In this document: piece by piece, positions 3,049 through 16,196 of the stretch
Layout: each line of letters starts with the position of its first letter
Numbering within the stretch: the first letter of the stretch is position 1
Source of the DNA: a virus
DNA: 20,823 nucleotides
Reading direction: 5' to 3' (one strand)
Virus record (IMG/VR): IMGVR_UViG_3300030012_004782
Location: 1 to 20,823 of that record
Translations under genes and position numbers: made by a program
The notes under the pieces: generated by a model
The model's input: only the letters and a program-made list of their open reading frames with translations
What the model was told of the DNA's origin: nothing
The model's database searches: none

Positions 3049-3639
3049 ATGTCATCATTTTGGAGCACAAGTGCCGCAGCAGCGACTAAAGACCCTAAAA
3101 GAAATTTTAGATTTAAAGTAACCTTTACAGGTCTTTCAACAGAATCCGTATGGTTTGCAAAAAAAGTTGGTAAACCAAATTTTACTATTACAGAGTCTAC
3201 ACACGAATTCTTTAATCACAAGTTTTATTATCCTGGTAGAGTTGAGTGGCAGCCTGTCACTTTGACTCTTGTTGATCCAGTTGATGAGACTGTAAATACA
3301 GCTGCTCAAATGGCGGCATTGGCTGAAGCTGCCGGCTATGTTATTCCGAAAGGACCAGGCGAAAATTTAGTATCAATGACGAAGGGTAAGGCTGTTTCTT
3401 CTATTGGTACAGTAGAAATTGTTCAACTAGATGGCGATGGAAAGGCTTTAGAAACTTGGAAACTTCACAATCCATTTATTAAGTCATTTAAGTGGGGAGA
3501 TTTGGATTATACCAGCGACGACATTACAGAAATGGAACTTGAACTCAGATATGACTGGGCCGAGTTGGAAACAAAAGCACAAAGTGCTAATCTTAATGAC
3601 ATGGGTCAAAAGAAAGAATTCTTCAAAACTACCGAATAG
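3049..3639 (+). CDS. Tail tube protein, gp19-like (copy 1)
   Basis: Tail tube subunit that forms the inner channel beneath the sheath. The 196-residue product shows the gp19-type pattern: RNFRFKVTFTGL near the N-terminus, VGKPNFTI, the NHKFYYPGRVEWQPVTLTLVD segment, SSIGTVEIVQLDGDGKALE and the closing WKLHNPFIKSFKWGDLDY-type strand. Length is close to T4 gp19 (163 residues). Its start has an AGGAG Shine-Dalgarno site about ten bases upstream. It sits directly after the sheath gene and before a second, clearly related tube gene; it may be the major tube protein because it is closest to the sheath and has the more regular sequence (inference). Function is assigned from family resemblance and position. 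Confidence 0.9.
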   Translation: MSSFWSTSAAAATKDPKRNFRFKVTFTGLSTESVWFAKKVGKPNFTITESTHEFFNHKFYYPGRVEWQPVTLTLVDPVDETVNTAAQMAALAEAAGYVIPKGPGENLVSMTKGKAVSSIGTVEIVQLDGDGKALETWKLHNPFIKSFKWGDLDYTSDDITEMELELRYDWAELETKAQSANLNDMGQKKEFFKTTE

Positions 3640-3657
3640 TCAATAATAGGATATTAA

Positions 3658-4203
3658 ATGTGGTGGAATTTAAAAGAAACAGAACCAAAAAGAAAGTATA
3701 GATTTGTTGTTGCAATAAACAACACAGGCTATTACACCGTAAAATCTGTTTCAAAGCCAAAGCTCACATTTGACAATAAAGAATACAAAATGATCAACCA
3801 CTTTTACAAGTATCCTGGGCTTGGGAAGTGGGAAGACATTGATATCACTTTTGTCGACAATATTAAAAGTGAAACTTCCGGTTTGTTTACAAAGCTTGTA
3901 AATGCATCGGGTTTCGCGAATCCTAACGGAAAGCAAATAAGTGGCAGTGCAGGAGGAAGCACAGCTTCTAAAACAGCTTCAAACACTTCTATAGGTGAAA
4001 TCAAAATAACTCAAGTAAATGGTGCCGGCAAAGAAATTGAAGTATGGACTTTACACGATGCAATTTTGAAAGATGTGTCTTGGGGTGATACCTTAGCATA
4101 TAGTGACGACGAATTAGTAGAATACAAACTAACTATACAATATGACTACGCAACTATTGGGGAAAACGGAATTACTTCAATGGCCCCCCCGAGTAGTAAA
4201 TAA
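3658..4203 (+). CDS. Tail tube protein paralogue, gp19-like (copy 2)
   Basis: The 181-residue product is a diverged tandem copy of the preceding tube protein. Matching blocks appear in the same order: KYRFVVAINNTG, VSKPKLTFDNKEYKMINHFY, YPGLGKWEDIDITFVD, TSIGEIKITQVNGAGKEIE and WTLHDAILKDVSWGD, with a shared Tyr-Ser-Asp-Asp turn near the end. A short Ser/Ala/Gly-rich insert lies around residues 98-112. In T4, gp54 is a tube-fold protein that starts tube growth on the baseplate, and some myoviruses carry two tube proteins. This copy could therefore be a minor tube protein, a tube initiator or a terminator; the sequence does not decide. An 18-base gap with an AGGA-type ribosome site separates it from copy 1. 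Confidence 0.85.
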   Translation: MWWNLKETEPKRKYRFVVAINNTGYYTVKSVSKPKLTFDNKEYKMINHFYKYPGLGKWEDIDITFVDNIKSETSGLFTKLVNASGFANPNGKQISGSAGGSTASKTASNTSIGEIKITQVNGAGKEIEVWTLHDAILKDVSWGDTLAYSDDELVEYKLTIQYDYATIGENGITSMAPPSSK

Positions 4204-4217
4204 AAAACGGAGATTAA

Positions 4218-5048
4218 ATGAAACGTAACAACGAAGAGAGACTTCTTGGTGGACACAAACCCACACCAAGCGAAGATGTCCCTCAAATGCAAAACCCAAT
4301 GGACTTTGTTGCTCCAACGGAATGGGTTTCTTTGCCTTCTTTAGGAAGATACCCCGAAGAACACCCACTGAAAGACAAGGACTCGATCGAGATCCGATAC
4401 ATGACAGCAAAAGATGAAGATATTTTGACAAACAGAGATCTTCTCAAAAAAGGTCTAGCGATCGACAGACTTATCTCGAACCTTATTAAGGATAAATCAA
4501 TAAATCCCGAACATCTTTACGTTGGTGATAGAAACGCAATCATGATTTATGCAAGAACCTCAGCCTACGGTGCGGAATACAAAACGAAAGTAAACTGTCC
4601 GAATTGCGGAGAGCAAAACAAGTGTGAATTTGACTTAACTCAACACGAAGTGTTCCATGGAAACGATTTCGATAAAGATTCAATCAAGATAACAGATAAA
4701 TCTACTTTTGAAGTAACACTTCCTCTTTCAAAAATCAAAGCTGCTATTCGACCTTTAATGGGCTTTGATGAACTCGACATGATCAAGAAATCAAAAGGTA
4801 AAATGCTAAATGATCTGGTTACACAGCAAATGAAAAGATTTGTTGTTGCCTTTAATGGATACGAAGATCAAAAAACAATCGATTATGTTGTTGATAACAT
4901 GGTTGCCACTGATTCTAGATACCTTAGAGACTGCTTTATGCTAATCTCTCCTGATGTGAAAGTCAAAAACAACTTTGAATGTCGTTATTGTGGACACGAA
5001 GAGGAGGTTAATGTTCCATTTGGAGCTGACTTTTTTTGGCCTGAGTGA
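4218..5048 (+). CDS. gp26-like baseplate/tail assembly protein with two CxxC pairs
   Basis: The 276-residue product resembles the T4 gp26 baseplate protein family (T4_baseplate type) found in many myoviruses just before the tape measure gene. The recognisable core is LPSLGRYPEEHPLKDKDSIE, followed by a YMTAKDEDILTNRDLLKKG motif with an acidic Asp-Glu-Asp centre. Two Cys pairs, CPNC at about residues 131-134 and CRYC at about 253-256, sit far apart in sequence and could form one zinc-ribbon site. By position it corresponds to the assembly chaperones that many tailed phages encode upstream of the tape measure gene; whether it is a hub structural part, a chaperone or both is open. The gene ends with the codons GAC TTT TTT TGG CCT GAG TGA, and a run of seven T lies where a ribosome could slip into the next frame. 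GGAG at 4210-4213 is the ribosome site. Confidence 0.75.
   Translation: MKRNNEERLLGGHKPTPSEDVPQMQNPMDFVAPTEWVSLPSLGRYPEEHPLKDKDSIEIRYMTAKDEDILTNRDLLKKGLAIDRLISNLIKDKSINPEHLYVGDRNAIMIYARTSAYGAEYKTKVNCPNCGEQNKCEFDLTQHEVFHGNDFDKDSIKITDKSTFEVTLPLSKIKAAIRPLMGFDELDMIKKSKGKMLNDLVTQQMKRFVVAFNGYEDQKTIDYVVDNMVATDSRYLRDCFMLISPDVKVKNNFECRYCGHEEEVNVPFGADFFWPE
5031..5037 (+). other. Possible programmed frameshift site (T7 run)
   Basis: Seven consecutive T lie four codons before the stop of the gp26-like gene. In the zero frame they read TTT TTT T. A +1 (or -2) slip here joins the upstream protein after residue 273 to the open frame that ends at 5217, giving a fusion of about 332 residues. This mirrors the G/GT tail assembly chaperone arrangement just before a tape measure gene. 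Against it, the downstream frame has possible starts of its own at 5011 and 5056. Confidence 0.35.
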
Positions 5049-5055
5049 GGAATAT

Positions 5056-5217
5056 ATGGAAGGAGTCTATGAGACTTTCTTTACCCTAAAACATTACGGT
5101 GGTTGGTCTTTATATGAATTGTACAATTTACCTGTGGGGCTTAGAACTTGGTGGCTAGAGCGTACAATCAAAGAATACGAAAAGGAAGCCAAAGAAGCTG
5201 AGAAGGCAAGAAGATGA
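5056..5217 (+). CDS. Small gp51-like tail assembly partner (or frameshift extension)
   Basis: An open frame overlapping and following the gp26-like gene encodes YETFFTLKHYGGWSLYEL, then LPVGLRTWWLER and a strongly charged Lys/Glu C-terminal helix. This layout resembles short T4 gp51-type and tape-measure-chaperone C-terminal pieces (weak family recognition). From the ATG at 5056 it has 53 residues, with a TGAGG Shine-Dalgarno site that overlaps the upstream stop codon, suggesting translational coupling. Alternatives are the ATG at 5011 (68 residues), preceded by a strong GAGGAGG at 5001-5007 but with only three bases between, or production as a C-terminal extension of the upstream protein by slippage on the T run at 5031. 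An intrinsic terminator begins two bases after its stop. Confidence 0.65.
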   Translation: MEGVYETFFTLKHYGGWSLYELYNLPVGLRTWWLERTIKEYEKEAKEAEKARR

Positions 5218-5218
5218 T

Positions 5219-5248
5219 GTCCACACTCTGTGGGCATTATTTTTTTTT
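5219..5248 (+). terminator. Intrinsic terminator upstream of tape measure gene
   Basis: A seven-base-pair stem (GTCCACA at 5219-5225 with TGTGGGC at 5229-5235, one G-T pair), a three-base loop and a run of nine T at 5240-5248 after ATTA make a convincing Rho-independent terminator. It lies between the assembly protein genes and the tape measure gene, inside what otherwise looks like one late operon. I see no promoter between it and 5283, so it probably attenuates rather than ends transcription. Confidence 0.75.
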
Positions 5249-5266
5249 AACTAATTACTGTTATTA

Positions 5267-5285
5267 GTGGGAGGACCACAAATTG
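5267..5285 (+). promoter_or_regulatory. Ribosome site in a small hairpin loop, with TTG start
   Basis: The tape measure gene has the Shine-Dalgarno run GGGAGGA (5269-5275). Its core lies in the five-base loop of a four-pair hairpin (GTGG 5267-5270 with CCAC 5276-5279). The first codon in frame after it is TTG at 5283; no in-frame ATG occurs until about 40 codons later. Stem strength is modest, so any masking effect is inference. Confidence 0.45.
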
Positions 5286-7940
5286 ACAGAAGATGAAAAG
5301 AAAAAAGCTGAGGCCGCGTCCAGACTAGAAGAGAGGCAGAGCATCAATGATGCGATAAGAGAAGGCAAAGAATTACAAGAAAGTATAAATAATTCTATGG
5401 CCGAAAGAAATGCCTTGATGGGCGAGTATGCCAAAAATGTAGCCGCTGCTTTAAAGCAAGAAATTGCTGAACAAGAAAGGTTGTTGCAAATAGCTCAGCA
5501 GACTAACAAATCTAGCGAAGAAAGAAGAAAAGATATGCTAGAGGCTCTGGGGTTGCAAGCCGAATTCAATCAAGCTCTTAATGATGCATTAGCGGCACAG
5601 AGAGAAGGAAACGAACTACAAGATGATCAGAAAAAACAAATTGAAGCTTTTCATGAAAAGTTGAAACAAACAACCGGAATACTTTCAACAAAATACACCG
5701 CCGCAATCGCCGCAGCAGCAATGAATTTTGACGGATCTGCAGAGGGAGCAAGAGACTTAGCCGAAGCAGTAGAGGCAGCCAGTCAAGCAGGAAATAATCT
5801 TCAAGAAGCTCAAAATGAAGTGTCCAAAGTTGCAGGTCAGGTGGCAGGTAAATTTGGTCTTGTTTCAGACGTCAGTGGCACACTGGTTGGGCAAGTATCT
5901 TCAGTAGCTTTTTCTTTAACAAAAGCGTACGATGCAGCAGGTGGCAAAGGTTTAGCTGGTGCAATGGGGTCTTTTTTACTAGAGTCTTTCTCTGCTGAAA
6001 AAATATTGGCCTCAATGGTTCAAGAAGCGATGAAGCTTGCCGTCGAACTCGATAAAGCTGGTAAAGCTTTCGGAGCGGCTACCGGGTTTGCATTTGGTGG
6101 TGCTCAAGCACGAATACAAGGCATATCAAAAGACTTAGTTAGATCCGGTGTTACAATGGAAAACGTTGGGACATCTATAAAAAGCCTCGCAGACAACTTT
6201 GCTGGTTTTGACCCTGGAAACATCAACAAGGATATGGTAACAACTTCAGCTTTGTTGGCAAAAATTGGTGTCGGAGCAGAGCTATCTGCTAAATCTATGG
6301 ACTTCATGGTTACCGTAATGGGAAAAACTGAAGAGCAATCCGCCGCTTTAACAAAACAGCTGGCTCTAACCGGTAGACAAATTGGAGTAGCTGCTACAGC
6401 AATGATATCAAATTTTAACAATGCGGCAAAAAAACTTGTCGAATTTGGTCCTCAAATGGTTTCTGTTTTCAAAGAACTTTCAGTTCAATCAAAGATAACC
6501 GGATTATCCATGGATAATCTCATAGGTATTGCTGAGAAATTTGACACATTTCAAGGAGCATCGGACCAGGTTTCTCAATTGAATGCAGTTCTTGGTACTC
6601 AAATGTCAGCCATGGACATGCTCAACATGTCGCACGACCAAAGAATACAAACTATAAGAAATGAGGTTAAAGCTTCTGTTGGAAACTTTGATTCTTTGGA
6701 TAGGTATACGAAAAAATATATAATGCAAGCAATGGGCGTAAAAGATGTCGAAGAAGCACAAAGAATGCTTAATATGACAAGCGATAAAACCAGTGCAAAA
6801 CAACAAGAGATGATGCAAAATCAAGAAGATTTGAAGGCAATCACAGAAGAACTAGTTCCAATGTATGACAAGCTTAAACTAGCATTCGCTGAACTTGTTA
6901 GAGAGATGGACCCTCTTATACAATTCTTTATTGAATTTATTGATACTATGGCAAAACTTGCACAAGACGGCTGGCTGAAATGGATAGCTGGTACTATTGG
7001 GGCGATTACCCTCGGACTTGTCCTATTTGGAGCCGCGATGGGATTTGCAGGGGCTCAAACAAAACTTTTGCAAATTGGCTTGATTCTTATTATAGGAGCA
7101 CTAAAGTACCTAGCAGAAGGTAAACTTGGGACGTTTGCTATAATATCTTTAGGAGTTGTTCTTCTCGGACTTGCCTTTCATTACCTAGGGAAAAGACTAG
7201 ATAAAGTTACTGAAAAGTTTGATTTCTTAAAACTATTATTTGGATCTAAAATCAATCCACTCTTTATTCAGTCCTTTGCCTTTATGTCTATCGGTGTTTT
7301 AGCACTTGCCTTGGCATTTAAGATTATGGGAATTCAAGGGACAACAGCGGCATATGCATTGGGTGCTGTATTCGCTGGTATGGGACTTGTAATATTTGCT
7401 CTCTCGTTTCTTGTTGACTCCATAACAAACCTCTTAAGTTCATTGACCGAAAGTGTCGATGTTTTACCTTTGGTGGCCATGGGTATTCTTGGTATTGCTT
7501 ACTCTGTTGGTGCTCTAGGAATGGCTGTTCTTTTGTCGACATCTGCTATAATATTTTTAATGGCATCAATGACAACTCTCGGAGGTGTGTTTGCGGGAAT
7601 AGGCATGTTTATGGGGATTAGTGCCCTTGAAGGAGTCGGATCAAGCATGGACAGAATTGGCAGCGGAATGGACAAGTTTGCCAACGGTCTTTCAAAAGTA
7701 AAAGAAGCAGCCATTGGAATGAAAGGGATAACCGATAAAGCATTTATGGCTTTTACAACAGATGGATCAAAAACTAGTGCAATAATCTCATCAACAGATA
7801 TTGTCAAGAATATGGTTTTAGGAAAAATGACAGTTGATGTTAAGATTCCGGAGATTGAAATACCTCAGGTCACCGTTAACATATATATGGACGGATCGCT
7901 GATCAGTAATTCACTTTACGAAACAATATTAGAAAACTAG
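5283..7940 (+). CDS. Tail tape measure protein
   Basis: The 885-residue product sets tail length and sits inside the tube. The first 130 or so residues are charged, Gln/Glu/Lys-rich and predicted coiled coil. The middle is Ala/Gly/Met-rich helix. A hydrophobic region from about residue 565 to 780 holds several membrane-type segments (for example IAGTIGAITLGLVLFGAAMG and IISLGVVLLGLAFHYLG), as in many tape measure proteins that help DNA cross the inner membrane. The C-terminus is a short beta-type piece with alternating Ile/Val (IPEIEIPQVTVNIYMDGS). At the usual 0.15 nm per residue this would give a tail of very roughly 130 nm (rule of thumb). The start is TTG at 5283, chosen from the well-placed GGAGG ribosome site. 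It follows the gp26-like assembly genes, the standard position. Confidence 0.88.
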   Translation: MTEDEKKKAEAASRLEERQSINDAIREGKELQESINNSMAERNALMGEYAKNVAAALKQEIAEQERLLQIAQQTNKSSEERRKDMLEALGLQAEFNQALNDALAAQREGNELQDDQKKQIEAFHEKLKQTTGILSTKYTAAIAAAAMNFDGSAEGARDLAEAVEAASQAGNNLQEAQNEVSKVAGQVAGKFGLVSDVSGTLVGQVSSVAFSLTKAYDAAGGKGLAGAMGSFLLESFSAEKILASMVQEAMKLAVELDKAGKAFGAATGFAFGGAQARIQGISKDLVRSGVTMENVGTSIKSLADNFAGFDPGNINKDMVTTSALLAKIGVGAELSAKSMDFMVTVMGKTEEQSAALTKQLALTGRQIGVAATAMISNFNNAAKKLVEFGPQMVSVFKELSVQSKITGLSMDNLIGIAEKFDTFQGASDQVSQLNAVLGTQMSAMDMLNMSHDQRIQTIRNEVKASVGNFDSLDRYTKKYIMQAMGVKDVEEAQRMLNMTSDKTSAKQQEMMQNQEDLKAITEELVPMYDKLKLAFAELVREMDPLIQFFIEFIDTMAKLAQDGWLKWIAGTIGAITLGLVLFGAAMGFAGAQTKLLQIGLILIIGALKYLAEGKLGTFAIISLGVVLLGLAFHYLGKRLDKVTEKFDFLKLLFGSKINPLFIQSFAFMSIGVLALALAFKIMGIQGTTAAYALGAVFAGMGLVIFALSFLVDSITNLLSSLTESVDVLPLVAMGILGIAYSVGALGMAVLLSTSAIIFLMASMTTLGGVFAGIGMFMGISALEGVGSSMDRIGSGMDKFANGLSKVKEAAIGMKGITDKAFMAFTTDGSKTSAIISSTDIVKNMVLGKMTVDVKIPEIEIPQVTVNIYMDGSLISNSLYETILEN

Positions 7941-15008: not shown

Positions 15009-16196
15009 ATGCTATTTCAATTAATGGACAACAAAACCGACTGTGCTGGGACTTATCTCAGCGGTCAATTCGTTTGGGACAAAATACCAGACGGAATATC
15101 AAAAACGTGGTCATACTCTGATCACTTGTATGGCAGAGACATCGAATATGCTAATTTACTGGTGGCTGGTAAGTCGATAGACGCCGTTTGCCCTGAGCAC
15201 CTAAGGGAGCGATGGGATTTCGTTAAAAACCTCATGAGAGCCCATTTCAAAGCTTTCTCGGCATCGAAAATTAACCTTGACGACGTTTGTTTCTACGACG
15301 TTGTGCCGAGAAAACAACTTCAACATTATTTTGAAGCACGCAATGACATCACACAGTGGGTATTTGATTCCATAGAGCGGCCTGATAACTATAATTTTTT
15401 AAAACGGATACAGGCAGCCACACGAGAACTCAAACAATATCCCGTTAATTTGAATTCTTTTGCAATTTATTGCTGTGCAGCAGATGATTTGAAAGCCAAA
15501 CAACTTTATGATCAATTTGGAGAGAGCACACCTTATGTTGACTATGATATCTTCGGAACGGTTACAGGGCGAATGACAACAAAGAAAAACTCATTCCCAA
15601 TCTTGAACCTCAAGACGGAACTCAAGAAACACGTAAGACCAAACAATGATGTGTTTCTAGAACTTGACTTCAATGCTGCTGAAGTCCGAACAATGCTTGC
15701 ACTGCAAGGCCACAAACAACCTGAGGAGGATATACATGAGTGGAATATCAAAAACGTTTTTAAAAAAGAACTTAGCCGAGACAAAGCTAAAACAAAATTA
15801 TTTGCTTGGCTCTATAACCCCGACTCCCAAACAATACAATCAGATTTCTACGATCGGGACAACCTTAGAGAAAAATATTATGATGGAGAAAAGGTTCAAA
15901 CCCCTTTCGGTAGATCGATCCCTGCTCCCTTTCGCAAGGCACTCAACTACCTACTGCAATCAAGCTCCTCGGACAACACCATGGACAGGTTTTGCGAAAT
16001 TTCTAATTTTCTTAGGGCAACAAGATCCCATGTTGCTTTCGTTGTTCATGATAGCGTTGTCATCGACTTACACAAAGATGATCGAAGACTGATTCCTGAG
16101 TTGGTTAATATGTTTGGTGATACTAGGCTTGGAAAGTTTAAAGTAAACTGTTCTCTTGGAAAAAACTTGGGATCAATGAAAGAGTTTAGGTGGTGA
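15009..16196 (+). CDS. Compact family A DNA polymerase (polymerase domain only)
   Basis: The 395-residue product is a DNA-dependent DNA polymerase of the Pol I family. Motif A reads LELDFNAAEVR, with catalytic Asp220 and Glu225 in the place of E. coli Asp705 and Glu710. The O-helix (motif B) has Arg257, Lys261, Phe265 and Tyr269, with the exact +4/+8/+12 spacing of E. coli Arg754, Lys758, Phe762 and Tyr766. Motif C is VHDS with Asp348; the Glu usual after it is Ser349. The TGR motif (T186-R188) and a TPFGRSIP/RKALNYLLQ section are also present. The N-terminal 150 residues show no 3'-5' exonuclease motifs, and the A-B and B-C distances are shorter than in E. coli (37 against 49, 91 against 128). 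A GGAGG site precedes the ATG by a few bases. The exonuclease may be encoded elsewhere. Confidence 0.9.
   Translation: MLFQLMDNKTDCAGTYLSGQFVWDKIPDGISKTWSYSDHLYGRDIEYANLLVAGKSIDAVCPEHLRERWDFVKNLMRAHFKAFSASKINLDDVCFYDVVPRKQLQHYFEARNDITQWVFDSIERPDNYNFLKRIQAATRELKQYPVNLNSFAIYCCAADDLKAKQLYDQFGESTPYVDYDIFGTVTGRMTTKKNSFPILNLKTELKKHVRPNNDVFLELDFNAAEVRTMLALQGHKQPEEDIHEWNIKNVFKKELSRDKAKTKLFAWLYNPDSQTIQSDFYDRDNLREKYYDGEKVQTPFGRSIPAPFRKALNYLLQSSSSDNTMDRFCEISNFLRATRSHVAFVVHDSVVIDLHKDDRRLIPELVNMFGDTRLGKFKVNCSLGKNLGSMKEFRW

Follow-up and report, generated by a model that had tools for sequence, protein, structure and literature searches.

The question raised by this locus is whether a gp26-like tail gene, which ends close behind a run of seven T and is overlapped by a second open frame, gives one product or two and, if two, how the ribosome reaches the second frame. 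The window, by which we mean the whole analysed stretch of 20,823 nucleotides, carries in order a tail sheath gene (phrog_23, E 2.9e-53), two gp19-like tube genes, the gp26-like gene, an ORF in its +1 frame and a long ORF. The gp26-like gene (4218-5048, plus strand, 276 aa) was assigned from Pfam, PHROG, hhalign and AlphaFold2 results as the short form of a putative tail assembly chaperone, and its placement, after sheath and tube and before the tape-measure position, is that of G/GT-type chaperones. The tape-measure position is occupied by the long ORF (5283-7940, plus strand, 885 aa), which was identified by position and composition only and has no PHROG match. The tube genes stand in tandem at 3049-3639 and 3658-4203 and both match phrog_4542 (E 3e-30 and 5.2e-26, respectively). 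Between the +1-frame ORF and the long ORF, at about 5220-5250, there is a terminator-like CCACA-CTC-TGTGG followed by a T run at 5240-5248; a terminator scan made no call at this stretch. Beside structural genes, 15009-16196 encodes a DNA polymerase A-like protein of a short 395 aa, and its Pfam match, just below the cut-off, covers only the C-terminal part of the model.

The putative slip site and its conservation

The gp26-like gene ends with GAC TTT TTT TGG CCT GAG TGA, in which the seven T occupy positions 5031-5037 and the 0-frame stop TGA (5046-5048, plus strand), the end of the short form, lies three codons past the two Phe codons. The putative slip site, UUU-U, consists of the UUU of F272, the UUU of F273 and the U of UGG (5031-5037, plus strand) and was delimited by codon conservation. 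The +1 frame is open up to 5217, and a +1 slip at either Phe codon, F272 or F273 (sister sites use either), would add 59 residues, GLSEEYMEG...KARR, encoded with their stop TGA at 5038-5217 (plus strand) and forming a putative TAC-C or gp51 C-terminal-like domain. The initial annotation had pointed to the T run four codons ahead of the stop and to the 59-residue extension, and its coordinates and counts are correct. The T7 run alone is no proof, because eight such runs are observed in this AT-rich window against 5.8 expected; the proof lies in conservation across relatives. The chance of a random open frame of 55 codons is about 2%.

Relatives were taken from IMG/VR scans and from named phages, giving about 340 loci, 322 of them with a recognisable site, and were clustered at 80% amino-acid identity into 158 clusters. 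Among the 322 loci the codons from F272 to P275 read TTT TTT TGG CCT in 248, TTT CTT TGG CCT in 39, TTC TTT TGG CCT in 19, TTT CTA TGG CCT in four and CTT TTT TGG CCT in three, with a few single variants. All but two loci have an open +1 frame downstream of the site, and the extension is found in this frame at about 320 loci. On the level of clusters, F273 is TTT in 144/144 and F272 in 147/156, compared with 75% TTT among Phe codons elsewhere in the gp26-like gene; codon entropy is 0.32 bits at F272 and 0.00 bits at F273 versus 0.8-2.4 elsewhere in the gene. P275 is CCT in 154 of 155 clusters, a constraint which can be attributed to the need of the +1 frame for Leu (CTN), and the single CCA belongs to locus L339, where the arrangement is lost. 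UUU followed by U or C is present in all 156 clusters that use the +1 frame, and the two clusters without UUU-Y do not use it. The extension is kept from the first codon past the slip (G in 150/154 clusters, L in 154/154), and these +1 codons, GGC CTN, are under selection. A 0-frame stop is situated three to six codons past the two Phe codons in 158/158 clusters and no in-frame fusion of the gp26-like gene with the extension was found among them, therefore both products seem to be retained. A second overlapping ORF that is conserved without a conserved start is a feature of G/GT-type chaperones, and it is present here.

The same layout was observed independently in the named phages Mel-JY01 and RM378 (both TTT TTT TGG), Flavobacterium immuto (TTT CTT TGG) and Streptomyces BRock (TTT C), and the sites of SP-15 (TTT TTT CAC) and GXN1 (TTC TTT CGT) fit a +1 shift at UUU-C. 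A programmed frameshift is almost certainly encoded at this site. Conservation of slip site, +1 extension and nearby 0-frame stop in ~320 loci lends strong support to the initial proposal of such a shift in the chaperone pair ahead of the tape measure, and the comparison of the T run in relatives, which it had recommended, found T7/UUU-Y and CCT invariant or nearly so across the 158 clusters.

Probable direction of the shift and alternative explanations

The site is best read as one at which tRNA-Phe makes a programmed +1 shift, from UUU onto UUU or UUC, and the +1 direction is very highly probable. Each of the sister sites preserves a UUU with U or C behind it, a context in which tRNA-Phe can pair anew after a forward step of one base. 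A canonical -1 site (X_XXY_YYZ) does not describe the arrangement, as the extension lies in the +1 frame and the preceding base is rarely T: the base before TTT TTT is C in 98 clusters, G in 29, A in 7 and T in 1, compared with T183:C129 at comparable pyrimidine wobbles elsewhere. A stop also lies two codons into the -1 frame in 139/158 clusters. The avoidance of U before the T run, together with these early stops, shows signs of selection against -1 shifts.

The initial annotation had allowed a +1 or a -2 slip, and only the first part stands, since the sister sites permit +1 alone. A slip of the ribosome by -2 on the T run, of the phage Mu type, would reach the same frame and give FFFGL with an extra Phe. 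It is permitted by the T7 of the window, and the near-invariant wobble of F272 (147/156 TTT), which a +1 slip at F273 would not require, counts for it. It is nevertheless improbable, as such a slip is impossible at TTC TTT TGG (19 loci), TTT CTT TGG (39) and TTT CTA TGG (4), where the layout is unchanged, and as the SP-15 and GXN1 sites, which fit +1 at UUU-C, speak against it. Because the TTC TTT TGG and TTT CTA TGG sisters can support neither of them, both a -2 slip and slippage of the polymerase are excluded as the mechanism shared by these loci.

The overlapping frame could also be translated from its own start, through reinitiation or coupling, which had been put forward as an equal option. 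Both of the ATG codons noted for this purpose are present in the +1 frame of the window, at 5011 with AGGAGG ahead and at 5056 with GAGG ahead, and in two relatives, L334 and L339, the extension domain is a separate ATG gene. These starts are, however, not conserved: among the junctions read, the ATG at 5011 is confined to the window and its closest copy, an ATG with a Shine-Dalgarno-like motif is found in the +1 frame of only 9/154 clusters, 16/154 have no ATG, GTG or TTG start in that frame, and in 33/154 a +1-frame stop lies at most 15 nt upstream of the slip. Separate translation also leaves the TTT constraint unexplained, and the selection on GGC CTN directly past the slip argues against a separate start. 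As an explanation for the window it is therefore not an equal option but a quite improbable one.

The two relatives just mentioned are informative in another way. L334 (TTC TTG TAT CCT) and L339 (TTC CTT TGG CCA) both lack UUU-Y and their +1 frame is closed, the extension domain being in the -1 frame with its own ATG just past the stop. Relatives lacking the T run had been suggested as the place where the frameshift could fail, if they kept both frames; these two do not use the +1 frame, and the frameshift reading stands. On the gp26 tree they are nested in the +1 clade (100/100), therefore the arrangement was lost in them. Three changes are needed to account for the +1, -1 and separate states on this tree, the deep part of which is unsure due to long branches.

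Transcriptional slippage, in which RNA polymerase drops one U in T7 and produces an mRNA with an in-frame fusion, would be favored by the homopolymer run at the junction, but relatives with a broken run (TTTCTATGG, TTCTTTTGG and TTTCTTTGG) retain the +1 layout, and the model predicts neither the upstream hairpin nor that the base ahead of the run is selected, which makes it highly improbable. A sequencing or assembly error masking one fused gene has a next to negligible probability, for although homopolymers are error-prone, it is already refuted by the frame relation, which is identical in isolate genomes and in about 320 loci assembled independently, some of these sites being without a homopolymer.

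The likely upstream hairpin and other RNA signals

Four bases ahead of the T run, at 5013-5026 (plus strand), the sequence GTTCC-ATTT-GGAGC can form a hairpin, which we presume to be a stimulator of +1 and an attenuator of -1 shifting. It was recognised by stability tests, because covariation in a fixed register is not significant (36/500 shuffles were as high); RNAalifold keeps only two of its C-G pairs, and other registers are used. The 24 nt that precede the site were compared with synonymous recodings in 70 representatives (60% identity) and proved more stable (mean z -1.48, t -7.0), while the test gave 0 to -0.4 for stretches elsewhere in the gene. Composition shuffles point in the same direction (t -6.5), and with controls of gene-specific codon usage the mean z is -1.29. 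A stability of -4 kcal/mol is reached in 98/158 clusters versus 27% in controls, and in most of these the stem ends 0-4 nt ahead of the site; about 38% of the clusters have a weak hairpin or none. The hairpin itself is likely, and we hold its role in the frameshift to be fairly probable. Huang, Cho, Chang 2018 (PMC6321510) report that +1 shifting by 70S ribosomes is enhanced, and -1 shifting lowered, by a hairpin that abuts the E site. In the phages the hairpin is present in two Streptomyces +1 phages; among four -1 phages checked, RAS14, XacN1 and PA5oct lack it.

Across 77 clusters no strong signal of a downstream RNA stimulator was found (mean z -0.4 to -0.7). A modest excess of stability is seen 36-60 nt past the first slip codon, corresponding to 5067-5091 in the window (mean z -0.8, t -3.6). 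An internal Shine-Dalgarno sequence was rejected as a universal stimulator, a matching 4-mer at -14 to -2 being present in only 55/158 clusters, 44 of which also have the hairpin.

Identity of the short and proposed long forms

The short form matches Pfam T4_baseplate (PF12322, E 2.4e-18) and the baseplate hub family phrog_150 (E 1.5e-21), aligns with T4 gp26 (hhalign E 5.6e-6) and carries two CxxC zinc-ribbon pairs. Over its whole length the fusion is collinear with the gp51 family of T4 (hhalign E 1.7e-4, probability 49%), and the extension by itself, too short for significance, gives a weak match to gp51 (E 0.058). Matches to phrog_634 were obtained for 2/39 members (best E 0.0071). A phrog_634 search of five larger relative contigs found no separate gp51 gene and matched the +1 extension in one. 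The short form and the extension were modelled apart with AlphaFold2, with pLDDT of 87 for the former and 93.7 for the latter, which is a helical hairpin. Among the PDB matches listed by Foldseek the HK97 chaperone 2ob9_B had the top probability, which was only 0.35 (E 1.4, TMt 0.46), and when viral structures were searched with the fold of the extension nothing fell below E 0.1.

Proposed mechanism

Taken as a whole, the best explanation is with high probability that the chaperone of a T4-related contractile phage would be made in a short and a long form by a +1 shift. The site, the frames, their conservation and the stability of the hairpin are read directly from sequence; the occurrence and the frequency of slippage and the chaperone function are what we infer. 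The majority of ribosomes would terminate at 5046 and release the 276-aa short form. In a minority, tRNA-Phe paired to UUU within 5031-5036 would move one base forward onto the overlapping UUU, and these ribosomes would read GGC CUG AGU and terminate at 5215-5217, giving a long form of 332 aa with a helical C-terminal domain. The +1 slip would leave a junction peptide ending in ...ADFFGLSEEYMEGVYETFFTLK. The hairpin at 5013-5026 would refold behind the ribosome, probably favoring +1 and blocking -1, which is also opposed by the C preceding the T run and by the early stop in the -1 frame. The two forms would then act as gp26 (short) and gp51 (long) do in T4: they would coat the tape measure, recruit tube subunits and leave.

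Comparison with known systems

Short and long tail chaperones produced through a frameshift are of an already known kind. Lambda G/GT and P2 E/E+E' are alike in having the gene just before the tape measure and in making a short form and a low-level frameshifted long form, but they shift -1 at a heptamer, whereas here the shift would be +1 at UUU-Y with an upstream hairpin, and no sequence relation was seen between them and the gp26/gp51 family of this locus. T4 gp26 resembles the short form and T4 gp51 is collinear with the +1 fusion, yet in T4 these are two genes on opposite strands while here there is one gene and a frameshift. In E. coli prfB (RF2) the P-site tRNA likewise moves forward one base with a stimulating duplex by the E site; RF2 combines CUU with an internal Shine-Dalgarno and an A-site UGA, and the site described here combines UUU-Y with a sense codon and a hairpin. 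The upstream hairpin of Huang et al. 2018 (PMC6321510) is a designed reporter, and the phage case may be its natural use; if true, bacteria would provide a natural instance of an upstream hairpin that stimulates +1 shifting.

A 2016 review (PMC5009743) states that the G-T shift is widely conserved in long-tailed phages "except T4". T4 relatives appear to have a G-T type frameshift after all, in the +1 direction, which suggests that the two genes of T4 and one gene with a frameshift are alternative routes to the same protein pair. According to a passage in PMC10885494, which cites Vladimirov, Gautam and Davidson 2022, some T4-like phages have separate short and long genes, and a passage in PMC12846349, citing the same work, mentions polyT -1 sites in other phages. 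Listeria phage PSA, which had been named as a +1 precedent for tail chaperones, does use +1 shifting, but in its capsid and major tail (tsh) genes (PMC5009743). No published +1 site in this chaperone was found in the literature covered; Vladimirov et al. 2022, with possible +1 members, lay outside it. We find it rather plausible that a large group of T4-related phages uses a distinct +1 signal of two parts, UUU-Y with a 5' hairpin adjacent to the E site, and safeguards against -1, and that the chaperone gene has switched between +1, -1 and two-gene states.

In the -1 polyT type of Vandenendeviridae/Andersonviridae, exemplified by phage Adele (PMC12846349), a T-rich site in the same place is followed by an extension in an overlapping frame, and the direction of the shift is opposite. 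The type also comprises RAS14 (L344, 1630-1650), XacN1 (L346, 1645-1665), PA5oct (L347, 1690-1700) and LR756511 (L084, 2195-2205), in which a T-rich heptamer of the gp26-like gene precedes an extension lying in the -1 frame, and its sites are of the U UUU UUY type; the annotated records of these four mark no frameshift. In every examined annotated record with the +1 layout the extension is either a separate hypothetical gene or unannotated. In Rhodothermus phage RM378 (L345, 1540-1800), where TTT TTT TGG is followed by a +1 extension, Rm378p029 and Rm378p030 are annotated as separate hypothetical proteins.
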